This document shows positions 3,093-10,043 of a stretch of 12,957 nt of DNA, piece after piece (within the stretch, counting starts at the first letter, position 1; every line of letters starts with the position of its first letter). This stretch comes from Desulfobacteraceae bacterium. Its GTDB lineage: Bacteria > Desulfobacterota > DSM-4660 > Desulfatiglandales > Desulfatiglandaceae. The stretch spans positions 2,572,108 through 2,585,064 of the forward strand of contig CP070700.1 in NCBI GenBank assembly GCA_020349865.1, read 5' to 3'. The position numbers and the translations under genes were made by a program. Under the pieces are notes generated by a model. The model did not search any database and was not told the DNA's origin. It was given only the letters and a program-made list of their open reading frames with translations.

Positions 3093-4061
3093 TTAGTTTT
3101 TCTTGAGAACAATAGCGGTTGTATTCGTCAGATAAACTCCGGAAATCACAAATATTGCCCCAACCAATAAGGAAAGCGTAATTGGTTCGCTAAGTATGAA
3201 AAAGGCAAGCAAAACAGCACTTATGGGAACGAAATTGATAAATTGACTTGCCTTCATAGGACCAATGGTTTTTATGCCTTGATAATACCATACAAATCCC
3301 AGCACTGTTCCGAAGAACCCTAAATAAAAGATACCGAACCAATCTGCTGAGGAGTAATTAACTAAATCCTGTATCATTCCCTCAAAATAGGCCGGAATAA
3401 ATAATGCAACCGCACCAACGATAGCGGAGTAAGATACGGACACAAGAGGAGATAAATTAGTCATGATTGCCTTGCCTATAAGAGTGTAAGCCACCCAGGT
3501 CAGCACACAGCAAAAGATATAAAATTCTCCCCACCCTACGTTCCCATTCAAGATTTCAATTAGGTTTCCTCTTGATATCACAATGATTGCCCCAATGACC
3601 GAAATGATAATTCCGGTAACCTTTAGGGGATTCAGCTTTTCTTTAAAGAAGAAGGAGGCAAAAAGCGTAATAAAGATGGGGTTATTTGCAATAATGAGTG
3701 ATGCTCGACCTGCTTCGATAATTTTGAGCCCCTTGAAGAAAAATACATTGTAGGCAAACACACCTGTCATACCGAGAAGGATAACCGGAATTATTTGGCC
3801 TCTCTTTACGAGGGGGAGTTTCCCTTCGATTCTTAAGGTAATAAAAAGAAGAAAAATGGATGCTATGGCAAATCTTAGAAAGGCAGCTGAAAAGGGCCCG
3901 GCATCCTTTGCAACGATTCTTCCCGCGATAAAGGTTCCTCCCCAGAAAACAGCCGTTAGAAAAAGTTTTGTATAAATAAATGGTAAGGAATCTTTACGAA
4001 TTTTCTTCTGAACAAGACTTTGGGGGCTTGGGGTTACCGCCCCATTTTGACCTTTTTGCAT
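3093..4061 (-). CDS. EamA/DMT-superfamily permease
   Basis: Integral inner-membrane protein of the drug/metabolite transporter superfamily, 322 residues, with two EamA repeats. About ten hydrophobic segments are visible, from residue 32 (FLTAVFWGGTFIAGRIV) to about 315. Repeat 1 contains the usual AFLRFAIA and ASLIIANNPIF blocks. Repeat 2 ends with FINFVPISAVLLAFFIL, the family's PV..vl.a block. The N-terminal 25 or so residues are polar and presumably cytoplasmic. The ATG at 4061-4059 shares its A with the TAA stop of the oxidoreductase beta-gamma gene (TAATG), so it is probably translationally coupled to it. Linkage suggests that it moves the substrate or product of the oxidoreductase pathway, such as a 2-oxo or 2-hydroxy acid or an amino acid. 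DMT substrates cannot be read from sequence. The gene is the last of the cluster and faces the aldolase gene tail to tail. Confidence 0.9.
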   Translation of the reverse strand: MQKGQNGAVTPSPQSLVQKKIRKDSLPFIYTKLFLTAVFWGGTFIAGRIVAKDAGPFSAAFLRFAIASIFLLFITLRIEGKLPLVKRGQIIPVILLGMTGVFAYNVFFFKGLKIIEAGRASLIIANNPIFITLFASFFFKEKLNPLKVTGIIISVIGAIIVISRGNLIEILNGNVGWGEFYIFCCVLTWVAYTLIGKAIMTNLSPLVSVSYSAIVGAVALFIPAYFEGMIQDLVNYSSADWFGIFYLGFFGTVLGFVWYYQGIKTIGPMKASQFINFVPISAVLLAFFILSEPITLSLLVGAIFVISGVYLTNTTAIVLKKN

Positions 4062-5362
4062 TACTGTTGCCCAACCTCAACCCGCTCAACCAGATCAAGG
4101 GTGGATGCGAGAACCGAGTCCTTGAATCTTGCCTCCAGGGCAGACCGGAGCATTTCAAGATTGATTACTTTGTTGAGTTTGGCCAGGACAGACAAAGATG
4201 CAAGGGCCCAGTCATGTGCCTTAACCCCTTGCCCTTTAAAGTCAACCAGATTCACTTTGGCGTTACTGGGTGGGACCTCGACCCCGTGTGCCTGAATGAT
4301 TAAGGTATCTTTATTAAGGTGGCCAAAAATATACGCTCGGCGGTCCACCCCTTCCTGGCCTATGGCCATGATGGCGGCAGGCCTTTCAATGCCGGTAAAG
4401 CCAATTTCCTCAGGAGAGAGGATTATCTCACTGATGGAAGGGCCTCTGAGTACCGTAATGTTGTACTCATTTTTTTGTGTTACCTTCAGCCCGGCAGTAA
4501 GTCCGGCAAGGCACAATATATCACCAGCTGTTATAATCCTCTGACCGGCATCACCAAGGATGATTACCTCCTGCCTGCCCGCTTCAGGGGGATCAAATCT
4601 GGCGTCAATCTTGGCTGGTGGTGAAACGGTTCTTTGGCTTTTTGCCACTTCTCTGTAATGTCTGCCATACTCCTTTCGAGTGTTATTCTCTACAATGCCT
4701 TTTCTGGGGGGAAACTTGGCGAGAGTGTCATCAATTACTTTAGGGGTTAGTTTGTTCTGTTTTAAATACCGTCCTGTGCAGACCCCCCATATGTCGATTA
4801 CGGAAAAACCTTTATGGCGAATAGCTCGGCCTATCTCCTCTGCAAGGTCTTTTTTGTAAGCTGAACACCGTGTGGCATAGGTTGCTCCTGCTGAACAAGC
4901 CACCTCACACACATCCAGGGGCCGCTCGATTCGGTTAAGAAAAGAGGATCCTACCTGGGCGTCGGGAGGGGTGGTCGCAGAAAACTGGCCGCCTGTCATC
5001 CCAAAGTTGAAGTTATTGAGAACCAGTAATGTCAGATCAAGGTTGCGGCGGCAGGCACTGAGGATGTGAGCCCCGCCTATACCCATACCACCGTCTCCCA
5101 TGGTAACCACAACGTTTAGGTCAGGCCGGGCGAGTTTGAGACCGGTTGCATAGGTCATGGCACGCCCATGGAGACCGTGCAGGGCGTGGGTATTAAAGAA
5201 TGTGTCAAAGAGCCCGGAGCACCCGATATCACTCACCATCACTATCTGATTGCCTTTAAGGCCCATGTTCTGGAAGGTCTTATCAAGGATGCGGGCAATT
5301 CGTTCGTGGGAGCAACCAGGACAAAAGACCAAGGGCCTGCTTTTATTCAATAAACTATACAT
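4061..5362 (-). CDS. 2-oxoacid:ferredoxin oxidoreductase, fused beta (TPP) and gamma subunits
   Basis: Oxidatively decarboxylates a 2-oxoacid to its acyl-CoA, passing electrons to ferredoxin, as partner of the alpha subunit encoded just upstream. The ATG at 5362 is chosen: AAGGAGG lies 9 nt upstream, while the TTG at 5368 sits too close to it. Its 433 residues comprise two parts. Residues 1-260 or so are the beta subunit with FCPGC (C14, C17), DIGCSG (C48) and GVCTGRY (C195), the four expected [4Fe-4S] ligands, plus the TPP-Mg motif GDGG (89-92) and NNFNFGMTGGQ (116-126). Residues 265-433 match the gamma domain, but its glycine motif is altered (GDAGQR for GxGGQG) and ITAGDIL follows. Gamma is usually separate or fused to alpha; fusion after beta is unusual. 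The gene overlaps the alpha gene by 8 nt (ATGTATAG) and the permease gene by 1 nt. Indolepyruvate, oxoglutarate or another branched or aromatic oxoacid are possible substrates. Confidence 0.88.
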   Translation of the reverse strand: MYSLLNKSRPLVFCPGCSHERIARILDKTFQNMGLKGNQIVMVSDIGCSGLFDTFFNTHALHGLHGRAMTYATGLKLARPDLNVVVTMGDGGMGIGGAHILSACRRNLDLTLLVLNNFNFGMTGGQFSATTPPDAQVGSSFLNRIERPLDVCEVACSAGATYATRCSAYKKDLAEEIGRAIRHKGFSVIDIWGVCTGRYLKQNKLTPKVIDDTLAKFPPRKGIVENNTRKEYGRHYREVAKSQRTVSPPAKIDARFDPPEAGRQEVIILGDAGQRIITAGDILCLAGLTAGLKVTQKNEYNITVLRGPSISEIILSPEEIGFTGIERPAAIMAIGQEGVDRRAYIFGHLNKDTLIIQAHGVEVPPSNAKVNLVDFKGQGVKAHDWALASLSVLAKLNKVINLEMLRSALEARFKDSVLASTLDLVERVEVGQQ

Positions 5363-6476
5363 TGGCAATAACCTCCTTGATCTGTCGTGGGGTTATCAGC
5401 CTCCCATTCATTTGACCAAAGAAGTGAACCTCCTTATCAGGAAGGACGCGCTCTATTTCTCTCACATACTGGCCAAGGTTCATCTCCACCACAACCACAT
5501 GTTTCACATTCTTGGCCTTTTCCTTGATTAGCTGTTCTGGTACCGGCCAGATGGTCTTGAGTACAAGGAGGGAAACAGGCTTTCCTTTACTTTTTTTCTC
5601 GACAAAAGCATCTTGTGCCGCACGAGCAGTAACACCATAGGTGATAACCAGTATGTCGGCATCATCCTCCATATACGCTTCGTAAAAGGAAAAACGGTCC
5701 ACGGCTGAAACGAGCTTTTTTTTAAGCCTTTCCTGGTTTTCACTGATTTTGTCAAAATCGGTGGTAATGTAGCCATCAGGACCGTGGGTAGAGGAGGTCT
5801 GCCGGACAAGGACCTTGTCTCCAATGGGAAGAAATTGAGGCACTGCATGGTCAGAAGTGACCTTAAAGGGTAAAAAGGGCCTTCCAGAGGGAGGGACTGC
5901 ACGCTCCTTTAGGTTCGGCCTCACAATGGCATCCATATCGATGCTTTCCTTGGTCATTGCAATCTCCTTATTTGATGCAATAAACACAGGACATCTGAAC
6001 TCTTCAGCGAGATTAAAGGCATGCATTGTCAGAGAAAGGCAGTCTTTAATGTCCACTGGCGCCAGCGCGATTACCGGTAGGCCCCCGCTGTTACCCCAAC
6101 GCATAAATTGTATGTCCCCGTCCGCACCGCGGGTGGCTGACCCGGTAGATGGGCCCAGTCTTTGCACAACCACAATCACGATCGGAATCTCGCTTCCAAT
6201 CGCAAAGGAAATATGTTCGCTGTAGAGGCTCAGGCCAGGCCCTGATGTGGCTGTCATTACCTTGAGTCCCGCCATAGACGCTCCCAAGCAAGAACCAATG
6301 GAAGCAATTTCATCCTCACCTTGTAGGCATATACCTCCCAAAGGGGGCAAAAGCCTGAGCATGGTATTAAATATTGTAGTTGCCGGAGTAATCGGGTATC
6401 CGGCAAAAAACCGGCATCCGGAATTTATTGCGCCCCAGGCAATCGCTTCATTGCTCTCCATGAGAGATAAGGACAT
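5355..6476 (-). CDS. 2-oxoacid:ferredoxin oxidoreductase, alpha subunit (KorA/VorB type)
   Basis: Alpha subunit of a 2-oxoacid:ferredoxin oxidoreductase, 373 residues, starting with ATG at 6476 behind AGGGAGG. Domain I (pyrimidine-binding) begins at once with MESNEAIAWGAINSG and the family block GYPITPAT (26-33), followed by GEDEIAS (54-60), whose Glu is expected to activate TPP. Next come ATSGPGLSLYSE and STGSATRGADGDIQ, the substrate/CoA-side loop of this family. Domain II, from about residue 270, contains ADILVITYGVTARAAQDA and the typical LKTIWPVPEQL ending. No N-terminal gamma domain is present, in agreement with gamma being fused to beta downstream. No ferredoxin-type delta subunit is found in the window. 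The gene lies 63 nt after the LarA-like gene and overlaps the beta-gamma gene, so the two subunits are surely co-translated. Family very secure; oxoacid specificity open. Confidence 0.92.
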   Translation of the reverse strand: MSLSLMESNEAIAWGAINSGCRFFAGYPITPATTIFNTMLRLLPPLGGICLQGEDEIASIGSCLGASMAGLKVMTATSGPGLSLYSEHISFAIGSEIPIVIVVVQRLGPSTGSATRGADGDIQFMRWGNSGGLPVIALAPVDIKDCLSLTMHAFNLAEEFRCPVFIASNKEIAMTKESIDMDAIVRPNLKERAVPPSGRPFLPFKVTSDHAVPQFLPIGDKVLVRQTSSTHGPDGYITTDFDKISENQERLKKKLVSAVDRFSFYEAYMEDDADILVITYGVTARAAQDAFVEKKSKGKPVSLLVLKTIWPVPEQLIKEKAKNVKHVVVVEMNLGQYVREIERVLPDKEVHFFGQMNGRLITPRQIKEVIANV

Positions 6477-6539: not shown

Positions 6540-7805
6540 TTAAAAAGGTGAAATAAGGTTCCCTTCCTTGTCAAAAGGCATCGGCAACCATGAGGATATC
6601 TGTTCTATTGTTGAGCTTCGTTCAATTTCAGGTAAAAATGCCTCTGATACAAACATCCGATCAAGGTTTCGTGTGTTCTGGATATTAACCACACGCATCT
6701 CATTTATGTCTTTTATTCCAACCGTCTCTAAGGCTGCGCCGATGGCTTCTTTGTCGTTGGGAAAGGCAATAGGGATGGCGGCCTTCTCAGGAGAAAGCCC
6801 TGTCAGACAATTAATGACTGTTTTGTCTCTATCAATCCTTTTGGCTAATCGATGGGTTATGAAATCAGCCAATCCGACCCCGGTGGCATTTCCATCGGAC
6901 AAATCCGTCAGGTCCCGAACGAATATCCGCTTGGGATGGGGGTGGATCCAGAAATCGCCAATAAGATCCCTGTGCCGTCCAATGACCTTTGAATCCATTC
7001 CCGTCCCGCTTATGTTCTTTCCCATCTCATCTACAATTAGTAGATCAATGTGGTCGAATGGTATTTTTGCCATGACTTTCTTAGATAAGGCAAGGAGCCT
7101 TTTTTCTTCTTCCATCATTTGCCCGGGAAGAACGGCTTTGAGCTCGGTAACCCGACCGAGCCCATTTTCCACAACACCGAGTCCAAAAAGCACGGGGCAG
7201 CGTTTAAGAATCATCAAGCCAGCATCTATAATAATCGCTTCCATGCCGTGATCAACTGCGGCCCGGTGATAAACACTCGCACCCTGATGTTTCCCCATGC
7301 CGATGGCCATCATTTTAAAAAGACCGCTCTCGATATCACCCTCAAACTTCGTGTGGGTTTTGATCCGGTTAATTACAACCAGGGCATCGGCATCAGCAGC
7401 ATATCCGTCTAAATAGACCGGGACATTCCTATGTGTAACACCAACCTCTATCACTTCCATGGAAGAACGCACAGGAACTCCCATACTTTCTTCAGTAATG
7501 CCGAGGTGGGCGAGCAAGGTTTTTTGCCCATCTGCTGTCGCGCCCCCATGGCTCCCCATTGCAGGAAATATGAAAGGTTTGGCGCCCACCCCTTTAAGGA
7601 CATCCACACAACTTCTTGTCACTTCATCAATTCGATCTATCCCGCGACTCCCAGCGCTAACAGCGATTGTTTGTCCAGGCCTTATTGTTTTATCACGGGA
7701 TAAAGAGGCTATAGTTGTCGAAACTTCTTTGGAAACATTCTCAAGTTCCTTATCATAAAGACTCAGACCCACGAGAGCCATTTTTGGAAAATCAACTCCA
7801 GTCAT
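6540..7805 (-). CDS. LarA-like protein (DUF2088), possible nickel-pincer 2-hydroxyacid racemase/epimerase
   Basis: Homologue of lactate racemase LarA, whose superfamily interconverts 2-hydroxyacid stereoisomers using a nickel-pincer nucleotide. I choose ATG 7805 (AAGG 5 nt upstream, 421 residues, usual size). The frame is open to an ATG at 8003, but that one has no SD and would overlap the seleno-TusA gene in another frame. Conserved blocks are PAMGSHGGATADGQ (81-94, H86), RSSMEVIEVG (113-122), NRIKTHTKFEGDIESG (146-161, H151), LFKMMAIGMGKHQGA (162-176, K164, K172) and YHRAAVDHG (179-187, H180). By spacing, K164 and H180 could correspond to LarA K184 (cofactor-linked lysine) and H200 (nickel ligand), and H86 to H108; this alignment is by eye. 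The cofactor-making genes larB, larC and larE are not in the window. Position between a TusA-like gene and an oxoacid oxidoreductase suggests hydroxyacid metabolism. Some DUF2088 proteins may not be racemases. Confidence 0.8.
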   Translation of the reverse strand: MTGVDFPKMALVGLSLYDKELENVSKEVSTTIASLSRDKTIRPGQTIAVSAGSRGIDRIDEVTRSCVDVLKGVGAKPFIFPAMGSHGGATADGQKTLLAHLGITEESMGVPVRSSMEVIEVGVTHRNVPVYLDGYAADADALVVINRIKTHTKFEGDIESGLFKMMAIGMGKHQGASVYHRAAVDHGMEAIIIDAGLMILKRCPVLFGLGVVENGLGRVTELKAVLPGQMMEEEKRLLALSKKVMAKIPFDHIDLLIVDEMGKNISGTGMDSKVIGRHRDLIGDFWIHPHPKRIFVRDLTDLSDGNATGVGLADFITHRLAKRIDRDKTVINCLTGLSPEKAAIPIAFPNDKEAIGAALETVGIKDINEMRVVNIQNTRNLDRMFVSEAFLPEIERSSTIEQISSWLPMPFDKEGNLISPF

Positions 7806-7923: not shown

Positions 7924-8151
7924 TTATTCGGGTTGGGAAACCTTCTTAACTCTAAGACGTACGTCGTTTTCGAAAAAAGTTTCCAAGACCACTTCACCAC
8001 CATTGTGGGAGATCACTTTTTTGATCTTTTCGAGCTTATCCTTTTCGAGGATAAACTCGAAACCTTCACCTGGGGGTAAGATCCTGAGACATAAACCTAC
8101 GTCTAAATAGGCCTTTCAGCAATCACCCCTGTAATCGATTAATTCCTCCAT
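7924..8151 (-). CDS. TusA/SirA-like selenoprotein with Cys-Sec motif (UGA read as selenocysteine)
   Basis: The gene is seen only when the UGA at 8118-8116 is read as Sec. ATG 8151 starts 2 nt after the LysR stop, with AAAGGA 5 nt upstream, and the frame runs 75 residues to TAA at 7926-7924. The protein begins MEELIDYRGDC-U, Sec being residue 12. LIDYRG matches the TusA start (lDxrG), PPGEGFEFIL (26-35) its central PGE strand, then IKKVISHNGGEVV (43-55) and a C-terminal strand NDVRLRVKKV (62-71). This is the whole TusA fold (about 75-80 residues). Counting back from PGE, C11 aligns with the catalytic Cys of CPxP and Sec with the following Pro; a second Cys is C21. TusA proteins relay persulfide sulfur; YedF-type relatives accompany selenium metabolism. 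The residues after UGA keep the fold, so UGA is not a true stop. Role here (sulfur/selenium donor or redox protein for neighbours) is inference. A decayed gene with a real stop is the alternative. Confidence 0.82.
8078..8118 (-). promoter_or_regulatory. Bacterial SECIS stem-loop directly after the UGA codon
   Basis: The minus-strand RNA starting at the base after UGA folds on itself. Upper stem AGACGU (8104-8099) pairs with AUGUCU (8092-8087), 6 bp with one G-U, capped by the loop AGGUUU (8098-8093). Below an AUUU/C internal loop, AAGGCCU (8115-8109) pairs with AGG-A-UCUU (8085-8078), 7 bp with one bulged A and one G-U. There are 17 nt between UGA and the apical loop, and G is the second loop base. 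These values fit the general bacterial SECIS pattern (loop 16-37 nt from UGA, short loop with G among the first two bases). It would recruit SelB with Sec-tRNA. Confidence 0.75.
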
Positions 8152-8153
8152 AA

Positions 8154-9104
8154 CTATCCTTTAACCTTTTCCTCGGAAGTTGCCAGCAGAAAATCAAGCA
8201 TGGCCTGGCATAATGGAGAAGCGATTCTTCTTCGATCTCTGATTAAATAGAAATTTCTAAACATGGAAAGGCCCTTGACTTTAAGTGCCTTAATAATACC
8301 GGTTTTCAGTTCCGTATCCAGGGCCCTTGAAGAGAGGATTGAAATACCGAGCCCGGCCTTTATGCCCTCTTTAACTGCCGTTGATGTGCCAAAGCGAGCC
8401 ACCACATGAAGGGAATCGATGGGATTTGAACCTGATGCCTTAAGGTAATCCTCCGTGATTTTCAAGGTTCCGGATCCCACCTCTCTCAAAATAAAAGGCT
8501 CCTTGGAAAGCTCTTCGATGGAAACTACCTTCTTTTTCGCCAACTGGTGATGGGCAGGAACCGCAAGGACCAGTTCATCTTTCCATAACTCGTTATGAAT
8601 GAGGTTTCTGTGCGAAGGTTTGGACCCAACTACACCCAGCTCAAGACGGCCATTCAAAATACGGTCTTCGATGTCACTTGTGTTGGAAACACTCAACGTG
8701 ACGGATAATAAAGGATATTTTTCTTGGAAATCTCCTATGACCTTTGGAAGTATATATTCACCCGGAATCGTGCTTCCCCCAATATAAATCGCCCCTTGTT
8801 TAATACCGAGAAAATCTTGTATTTCAAGGCACGCCGTCCTTTTCATGTCCAGGAGAAGAACCGCATGTTTGTAAAGGATCTCTCCCGCCTTTGTTGGCAC
8901 AATCTGCCTGCCCAGACGGTCAAGAATTCTCGTCCCGACCATGGTCTCAAGTGTGGCTATCCTCTCGCTGACAGATGCCTGTGCCAGGAAAACCGCTTCG
9001 GCAGCCTTTGAAAAACTGCCCAGCTCAACAACCTTTCGGAAGATTTCCAGTTGCCGCAGGTCAAAGTCAATGGATGGTATTTTGTGGGAAACGGCTTTTT
9101 TCAT
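8154..9104 (-). CDS. LysR-family regulator, selenium-metabolism-associated type
   Basis: LysR-type transcription factor, 316 residues from ATG 9104; a GTG at 9119 would add five residues, and neither has a good SD. The N-terminal winged helix-turn-helix is complete: DLRQLEIFRKVVELGSFSKA, then AEAVFLAQASVSERIATLE and RLGRQIVPTKAGEILY. The linker helix is followed by the periplasmic-binding-protein-like effector domain beginning GAIYIGGSTIPGEYILPKVI and GRLELGVVG. The STIPGEYILPK segment and overall sequence recall, from memory, LysR proteins annotated as selenium metabolism-associated, found in Sec-using anaerobes. That fits its position 2 nt ahead of the seleno-TusA gene, at the head of a cluster of the same orientation. 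It may sense a cluster metabolite and autoregulate. Family certain; selenium link and ligand are inferred. Confidence 0.9.
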   Translation of the reverse strand: MKKAVSHKIPSIDFDLRQLEIFRKVVELGSFSKAAEAVFLAQASVSERIATLETMVGTRILDRLGRQIVPTKAGEILYKHAVLLLDMKRTACLEIQDFLGIKQGAIYIGGSTIPGEYILPKVIGDFQEKYPLLSVTLSVSNTSDIEDRILNGRLELGVVGSKPSHRNLIHNELWKDELVLAVPAHHQLAKKKVVSIEELSKEPFILREVGSGTLKITEDYLKASGSNPIDSLHVVARFGTSTAVKEGIKAGLGISILSSRALDTELKTGIIKALKVKGLSMFRNFYLIRDRRRIASPLCQAMLDFLLATSEEKVKG

Positions 9105-9146
9105 GGGATTATTTCGCACTTCGTGAATCCAGTTGCTCTTTTTAGG

Positions 9147-9248: not shown

Positions 9249-9908
9249 TCACAAATACGGAAACCACATCCTTTCGATGCCTTCAAAATTGTTTTTAACC
9301 GCTTCACTGCCCGACAAAATATCACCATGGCCCGAAAGCAGGTATTCCGCATCACGCAGGGAGATCCTTTTAATGCTTTCTTTCAGTTCTTGCCCGTCGC
9401 CTCCAGGCAAATCAGTTCTCCCGATACCCTGATTAAAGACCACATCACCGGTGAAAAGCACTTTTTTTTCCGGCCAAAAGAGGCAAATGGAACCGGGTGA
9501 ATGGCCAGGGGTATGGATAACCTGGAACTCAATCTCTCCCACATTCAAATCACCTTCTTGAAGCAAAAAATCAGGCTCGAAATCCGATATGCCGAGGGCG
9601 TCTCCATAGTGCGGGGCAACTGTCTTGATGAAATCCATTTCTATGGAGCTTACCGCGATCAGAGTAGAGGTATTTGCAAATACCTTTACGGCTTCCATGT
9701 GGTCGGGATGACCGTGTGTGATAATGACCAGATCAATATCCTGGGGGGACAGTGAAAGGCCGGAAAGTCCATCCTGAACATGGCTAAAAAGGTGATAATG
9801 GCCCGGATCTACAAGGATCTTTTTGTCTGCATTTATGAGATAGGTATTGCAGTTATTTGCCGATGGGCTGAGCCACAAAAAAGCGTGTAGGTTGTCAAGT
9901 ATTTTCAT
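9249..9908 (-). CDS. MBL-fold metallo-hydrolase, glyoxalase II-like
   Basis: Metallo-beta-lactamase-fold hydrolase, 219 residues from ATG 9908; an upstream in-frame TTG at 9917 has no better signal. The dinuclear metal motif is complete: THGHPDH (HxHxDH at 65-70), then HTPGHSPGSICLF, TGDVVF with the bridging Asp, and a final SGHGD. NTYLI and ILVDPG near the N-terminus are the usual beta-strand blocks, and GRTDLPGGD is the loop typical of glyoxalase-II-like and related small MBL proteins. It is cytoplasmic, with no signal peptide. Glyoxalase II, persulfide dioxygenase or another thioester/lactone hydrolase are all possible; the motifs do not separate them. It has its own promoter candidate at 10044-10072 and lies 144 nt ahead of the LysR gene on the same strand, separated by the repeat array. 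Confidence 0.88.
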   Translation of the reverse strand: MKILDNLHAFLWLSPSANNCNTYLINADKKILVDPGHYHLFSHVQDGLSGLSLSPQDIDLVIITHGHPDHMEAVKVFANTSTLIAVSSIEMDFIKTVAPHYGDALGISDFEPDFLLQEGDLNVGEIEFQVIHTPGHSPGSICLFWPEKKVLFTGDVVFNQGIGRTDLPGGDGQELKESIKRISLRDAEYLLSGHGDILSGSEAVKNNFEGIERMWFPYL

Positions 9909-10043
9909 GGGGATCAAGTCCGTTGATTATTGTTGGTTGTTGGCTGAATACAGCTTTCGTCTTGGTAATCTGCGTTTCATGCTCCCAAACCGGTATTGAT
10001 GGTGGGGACAGTTACGCAGTTGATTGCAAGTATTTGGTTTTGG

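Follow-up and report, generated by a model that had tools for sequence, protein, structure and literature searches.

The proteins closest to the one considered here belong to the TusA/SirA family (PF01206), for which structures of Escherichia coli TusA (1dcj, 3lvj) and of YeeD/TsuB (8j4c, 8k1r) are at hand. A SirA-like protein, later called YedF, has been linked to the selenophosphate synthetase SelD, without being termed a selenoprotein in the relevant part of that work (PMC2432076), and LysR_Se, YedE, YedF and DUF3343 have been proposed as selenium genes (PMC5322559). In an archaeon, TusAD transcripts have been reported to rise on selenium depletion (PMC11097638), and a "sulfurtransferase" selenoprotein has been named, with no detail in the portion concerned (PMC8318568). 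The cellular route of selenium to SelD has been worked out only in part, according to one review (PMC13188914). The present analysis deals with a stretch of 12,957 nucleotides from a Desulfobacteraceae bacterium (contig CP070700.1 of assembly GCA_020349865.1, positions 2,572,108 to 2,585,064), referred to below as the window, in which an earlier note had pointed out a hidden selenoprotein gene encoding a vicinal cysteine-selenocysteine (Cys-Sec) pair in a TusA-like fold. This core claim is supported, with the selenocysteine machinery, the conservation of TGA and the conservation downstream of it all having held, and the gene almost certainly encodes a selenoprotein.

The reading frame and its relatives

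The gene occupies positions 7924..8151 on the minus strand and comprises 75 codons followed by a TAA stop, with its ATG at 8151-8149. Its sole internal UGA, read as Sec at codon 12 (8116..8118), lies directly 3' of the Cys11 codon and completes an Asp-Cys-Sec motif (codons 10-12, 8116..8124). The ATG stands 2 nt past the TAG stop (8156-8154) of a LysR regulator gene, and a Shine-Dalgarno-like AAAGGA (8157..8162, also minus strand) ends 5 nt ahead of it. This arrangement, as proposed in the earlier note, is borne out by the sequence, and so is the expectation that standard callers would miss the gene or extend a LarA-like frame over it: with translation table 11 and a minimum of 60 aa, open reading frame (ORF) calling does not list the gene, and the LarA-like frame is drawn out upstream as far as 8003, across the selenoprotein gene.

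A search with the read-through protein among about 5.8 billion predicted proteins yielded 28 relatives, and a profile search of predicted proteins at least 107. Among the latter as listed, 37 cover the UGA codon, with Trp in every case, and the remaining 70 lack the codon region, nearly all of them starting downstream of it; a third search with distant members added 25 proteins, two of which cover the codon, again with Trp. Such Trp entries and late starts are what would be expected of gene callers that translate UGA as Trp when contigs are short or that begin too far downstream. A Cys form at this position was found in none of the 39 codon-covering database proteins among the matches listed, nor among the codon-covering genome matches. 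Cys-containing homologues, usually looked for in a selenoprotein family, were thus not found among the sequences covered here; their existence is a rule of thumb and not a defining feature, and TusA itself may be a remote Cys relative of the family.

At the level of genomes, where the searches covered the phylum of locus L003, matches were obtained in 32 of 85 genomes of its class and in 31 of 395 genomes of its phylum. A TGA is present in the frame of all 63 matches, a few of which have a TAA or TAG as well, in agreement with the claim that homologues would keep a Cys or Sec codon. A wider profile matched 35 of the 395 genomes, 31 with TGA and four, weakly, without it; by eye, two of the four are YedF-like, one TusA-like and one cysteine synthase-like, and because these matches are weak, the three TusA-like ones give soft support for kinship only. 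Combining the class, phylum and wider-profile searches, TGA matches were obtained in 55 distinct genomes of one phylum. A narrow peptide-pattern scan of genome contigs returned 13 loci, all from Deltaproteobacteria or Desulfobacteraceae. In viral contigs 23 pattern matches included no relatives, in a scan that leaned on one of its patterns as the other required a Trp codon at the UGA, and in plasmid records no near-identical DNA was found.

The aligned set comprises 54 genes (the window and loci L001-L013 and L070-L109), with the carrier genomes G046 and G184 outside it. In the 48-nt alignment L010 duplicates another locus, which leaves 53 distinct rows; L085 was kept in the sets of 53 and 54 and excluded from a 32-gene codon set. 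TGA occupies the Sec codon in 53/53 distinct rows, and the residue ahead of it is Cys in all 54 genes. The residue following the Cys-Sec pair is Lys in 36, Arg in 7, Ala in 5, Ser in 4, Gly in one and Trp in one. Three subgroups can be told apart by their motifs: DYRGDCU-KAY-DVGLCLR, which includes the window, DYRxDCU-GF-DVSLRLR and DSRKDCUK-VGVGLRFR. The CUxxY motif described in the earlier note thus stands for the window subgroup, where the aromatic position is mostly kept as Tyr or Phe, and does not extend to the two distant subgroups.

The Trp entries raise the possibility that UGA stands for Trp throughout the genome (code 4), an assumption that the metagenome callers seem to have made; all 39 listed database proteins covering the codon carry Trp, their own codons not being visible. 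In ten other window genes that were examined, however, Trp is encoded by TGG, and one of them, the gene of a metallo-beta-lactamase-fold (MBL) hydrolase, has TGA as its stop, at a length like that of its relatives. These data support UGA as a stop elsewhere without proving it, because TGA had been counted among the stops when the ORFs were delimited. Within the family, the first stop after the UGA is TGA in 23 genes, TAA in 18 and TAG in 13, and genes ending at a later TGA have lengths like those ending at TAA or TAG. Most relatives also have SelB and tRNA-Sec. On TGG use, TGA stops and the covarying hairpin described below, the Trp reading was rejected, its probability being practically negligible.

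A second possibility is that translation really ends at the UGA, which would make the frame a decayed gene or one for a short leader peptide. Standard ORF calling does end at the UGA, and one copy of the 54 (L085, 8154-8426) looks decayed, its sequence deteriorating soon past this codon. Against this, means over 91 pairs of 14 genes gave a synonymous divergence (pS) of 0.753 and a nonsynonymous divergence (pN) of 0.155 for codons +12 to +58 past the UGA, so that the downstream sequence is conserved as protein, as the earlier note had required; in the six codons ahead of it the values are 0.888 and 0.015, and in the hairpin region (codons +4 to +11) 0.41 and 0.062. Judged from these sequence comparisons, purifying selection acts both before and after the UGA. 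Third bases in the hairpin region are fixed in the window subgroup (Asp+5 GAC 32/32, Val+6 GTA 29/29, Leu+8 xTA 32/32, Cys+9 TGT 32/32), and other conserved codons of that subgroup vary in the third base, Val+34, for example, being written with four codons. Conserved length and the predicted fold also speak against a stop, a reading that is very improbable and was rejected on the covarying hairpin and the downstream purifying selection. That the frame is far beyond chance is confirmed by the relatives, by purifying selection and by the constant spacing of a covarying hairpin.

The hairpin and the selenocysteine machinery

Bacterial selenocysteine insertion sequence (SECIS) elements have been modelled as a stem of 4-16 bp with a loop of 3-9 nt, a spacing of 16-37 nt, a minimum free energy (MFE) of -7.5 or lower and a G in the first two loop positions (PMC13188914). 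In the window, a hairpin with a 7-bp stem and a 4-nt loop (8087..8104, minus strand) starts 11 nt past the UGA. Its loop lies 18 nt past the UGA and carries G in its first two positions in 53/53 rows, so that stem, loop and spacing all fall within this model, and the MFE of the 48-nt segment is -7.5 or lower in 51/53 rows. With columns numbered from the U of the UGA as 1, the stem joins columns 15-21 to columns 26-32 and is paired in 98.1% of 371 cells (53 rows, 48 nt), with four pairs changed on both sides in 13 cells. None of 500 shuffles equalled the observed alignment in percentage paired, in double-change counts or in covariation score, and 15 of 500 reached its number of pair types; versions of the stem slid along the alignment were paired in 23.5 to 64.4% of cells. 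On the strength of this 98.1% pairing and of the compensatory changes, the hairpin is regarded as a bacterial SECIS. Two observations weigh against this: the lowest-energy fold differs from the hairpin in 12 of 53 rows, as read from the fold brackets, and the folding energy of the window hairpin is ordinary (-9.6 kcal/mol, z -0.27). A scan of the window with Rfam gave no SECIS-type match, only a single weak match elsewhere in the window. The loop presumably resembles that of E. coli fdhF.

The machinery needed for Sec insertion, a check suggested in the earlier note, was found in most of the relatives' genomes. SelB exceeds its cut-off in 11/13 of these, and a tRNA-Sec match of at least 69 bits occurs in 21/24 genomes; one of the remaining three, G005, has a 55.8-bit match called tRNA-Sec by ARAGORN, and borderline matches near 47 bits, which occur in control genomes too, were left uncounted. 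SelB is present in 28/32 carriers vs 38/53 non-carriers in the class of L003, and in 31/31 carriers vs 353/395 genomes overall in the phylum draw; since SelB is near universal in this phylum, its co-occurrence with the family says little. The reading of codon 12 as selenocysteine is held because the UGA is kept, a covarying SECIS follows it and the relatives mostly have SelB and tRNA-Sec.

As a separate observation, in L005 (3589-5665) and in L141, L142 and L143 a SelB gene adjoins a divergent tRNA-Sec, whose UCA anticodon is at position 32, compared with position 36 in the L145 example. The two genes of L005 are found some 2 kb downstream from the selenoprotein gene, and elsewhere in G005 and in G013 there is a second SelB. 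SelB and the divergent tRNA-Sec are possibly a second Sec-insertion system.

Predicted fold and gene neighbourhood

The predicted structure of the selenoprotein (pLDDT 92.5) has a beta-alpha-beta-alpha-beta-beta arrangement, with the Asp-Cys-Sec tip where helix 1 begins, and TusA/SirA/YeeD chains make up its six best structural matches. On this model the protein very probably has the TusA fold that had been claimed for it. Signals from sequence profiles are faint. PF01206 matches 10/48 members, weakly (best E 0.01), in a scan with the third subgroup outside it; judging from the E-values, the curated cut-off of 28.6 bits is not reached, and P0001 has no match. Among NCBIfam models (June 2026) no convincing one was found for the 48 members, ten models matching any member at all. 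A search of PDB sequences with the family profile did not find TusA and returned two chance-level matches, and an alignment, profile to profile, with TusA sequences found in the same genomes is collinear and weak (E 0.004-0.011, probability under 4).

The register relative to the TusA catalytic Cys is ambiguous by one residue. Alignment with hhalign places Sec opposite this Cys, and counting back from a shared Gly-Glu places Cys11 opposite it, with Sec opposite Pro. Helix 1 starts at residue 11 in the selenoprotein model and at residue 13, one past the Cys, in the TusA model, which is of lower confidence (pLDDT 77). It had been proposed that the UGA directly follows a Cys equivalent to the catalytic one; the first part stands, and the equivalence does not follow from these alignments.

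Upstream of the selenoprotein gene lies the LysR regulator (8154..9119, minus strand), which is matched by the selenium metabolism-associated model NF040786 at 272.7 bits (cut-off 250). A LysR cluster is present in 25/54 loci, directly upstream of the selenoprotein gene in 23, and the cut-off is exceeded by the LysR of the window, L013 and L077. The described LysR_Se/HrsM (PMC5322559; NF040786) is thus matched by the adjacent regulator and not by the selenoprotein, which this regulator would be expected to control. An MBL-fold hydrolase (9249..9917, minus strand, ending in TGA) comes next in a recurring MBL - LysR - selenoprotein order, being found in 21/54 loci and upstream in 20 of them. A scan for promoters and terminators around the selenoprotein gene gave signals no more than chance.

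On the other side, a gene for a LarA-like nickel-pincer-cofactor isomerase of group 22 (6540..7805, minus strand, with the ATG at 7805 chosen as start) is matched by NF052515 at 497 bits. Membership of a LarA/oxoacid-oxidoreductase operon, as inferred in the earlier note, proved to be a local feature, with a LarA-like gene downstream in 3/54 loci vs LysR in 25/54, and the LarA operon was rejected as the defining context. Further along the window, 4061-5368 encodes the beta (thiamine pyrophosphate) and gamma domains of a 2-oxoacid:acceptor oxidoreductase in one 435-aa gene. The LarA-like neighbour also bears on the idea of a metal or metalloid binder, in which Cys and Sec together would act as soft ligands of mercury, arsenic or nickel, possibly on behalf of the downstream enzyme. 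Motifs with Cys-Sec given for SaoL, HgcA, SaoC and MbdU in the 2026 catalogue favour it (PMC13188914), but with this neighbour in only 3/54 loci and no metal-resistance gene seen among representative neighbour sequences, most of them judged by eye, such a role is improbable.

Selenium genes occur within nine genes of the selenoprotein gene in at least 7/54 loci, many contigs being short. One representative of each was identified with TIGR00476, TIGR03527, TIGR04112, TIGR00475, PF11823 or PF01206, and the rest by BLAST clustering. YedE, TusA, SelD and YedF are neighbours in L003; SelD, YedF, YedE, TusA and a Se/S carrier in L007; YedE, TusA and a Se/S carrier in L070; YedE and a Se/S carrier in L071; SelD and YedF in L077; YedF in L013; and tRNA-Sec and SelB in L005. 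In the two distant subgroups no selenium neighbour was found among shared clusters.

Some further neighbours may be mentioned. The SelD frame of L007 (10420-11472), read by eye, seems to run on upstream across an in-frame UGA, and this SelD is probably a selenoprotein shortened by standard calling. In L002 (8855-9604), L003 (5861-7495) and L005 (1637-3265) a gene that appears similar, by eye and from its first residues, directly follows the selenoprotein gene, the one in L005 having HAMP and adenylate/guanylate cyclase domains. In the most distant subgroup (L087, L102, L104-L109) the gene is often near an agmatinase-like and an S-adenosylmethionine decarboxylase-like gene, with a Dus-like gene on the opposite side, again by eye.

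Possible roles and comparison with known systems

What the family does we infer. The explanation judged best overall, and rather probable, is a new TusA-fold selenoprotein family acting as a Cys-Sec carrier between uptake and SelD; the narrower proposal of a selenium/sulfur carrier in selenium supply is given about an even chance. The vicinal pair would bind selenium (or sulfur), in the form of a perselenide, persulfide or selenenylsulfide, and would pass it on as TusA passes sulfur, which would place the protein between a YedE-type transporter and SelD, with its gene controlled by the adjacent selenium LysR. An obligate selenium carrier could also be its own selenium gauge, loading selenium towards SelD and signalling to this LysR: the protein would be made only when tRNA-Sec is charged, and therefore its level would report selenium status. 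This extension appears doubtful.

The main rival to the carrier reading is a redox protein, in which the pair would cycle between a selenenylsulfide and a reduced form and reduce a disulfide or a selenium or sulfur compound. In mammalian thioredoxin reductase a C-terminal Cys-Sec pair cycles in this manner. The invariant Cys ahead of Sec (54/54 genes) is consistent with such a role, and most uncharacterised selenoproteins are thought likely to be redox proteins (PMC9312934; PMC13188914). The predicted fold, however, is that of a carrier family, and TusA, YedF and Se_S_carrier genes adjoin in some loci, so that a redox function is viewed as possible and held only tentatively, with a carrier remaining the preferred reading.

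The earlier note had mentioned reports of SirA-like selenoproteins in deltaproteobacteria; none was found in two catalogues or in searches of open-licence PubMed Central papers. A SirA/TusA selenoprotein was not found in Table 1 of PMC9312934 (2022) or of PMC13188914 (May 2026, 119 families), and the words SirA and TusA were not found in the text of the latter so far as available. The family appears to be a genuine one of selenoproteins that has so far escaped annotation, and its TusA/SirA-like type is not listed in the 2022 and 2026 catalogues. All known selenoproteins are stated now to seem to have Cys homologues, and a selenoprotein without them may be filtered out by the deep-Sep finder (PMC12013277). 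Homology-based finders seek Cys/UGA pairs, and the family appears to be a counter-example to universal Cys homologues; because no Cys version of it has been found, its being missed is partly explained, and the case suggests that finders overlook other selenoproteins for the same reason. For selenium delivery to SelD, a TusA-like protein that bears Sec and is encoded near selenium genes is also a direct, testable candidate.

When compared with other selenoproteins, the family shares a vicinal Cys-Sec with KCU-star NF033934, SaoL, SaoC, HgcA and MbdU, according to the motif column of the catalogue (PMC13188914), whereas the NCBIfam models of these matched none of the 48 members. When compared with TusA/SirA, whose helix 1 carries CPxP, this motif does not occur in the family, which has DCU-K or the like in its place and Sec in every member, with no Cys form found. 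The likeness to YedF (TIGR03527) lies in a TusA-like domain within a selenium gene cluster, both genes being found on the same stretch in L003, L007, L013 and L077. Unlike the selenoprotein, a single 75-aa domain with no DsrE-like part and no TIGR03527 match, YedF (TusA-DsrE) has a second domain and, in the one representative considered, a CPxP Cys without UGA.
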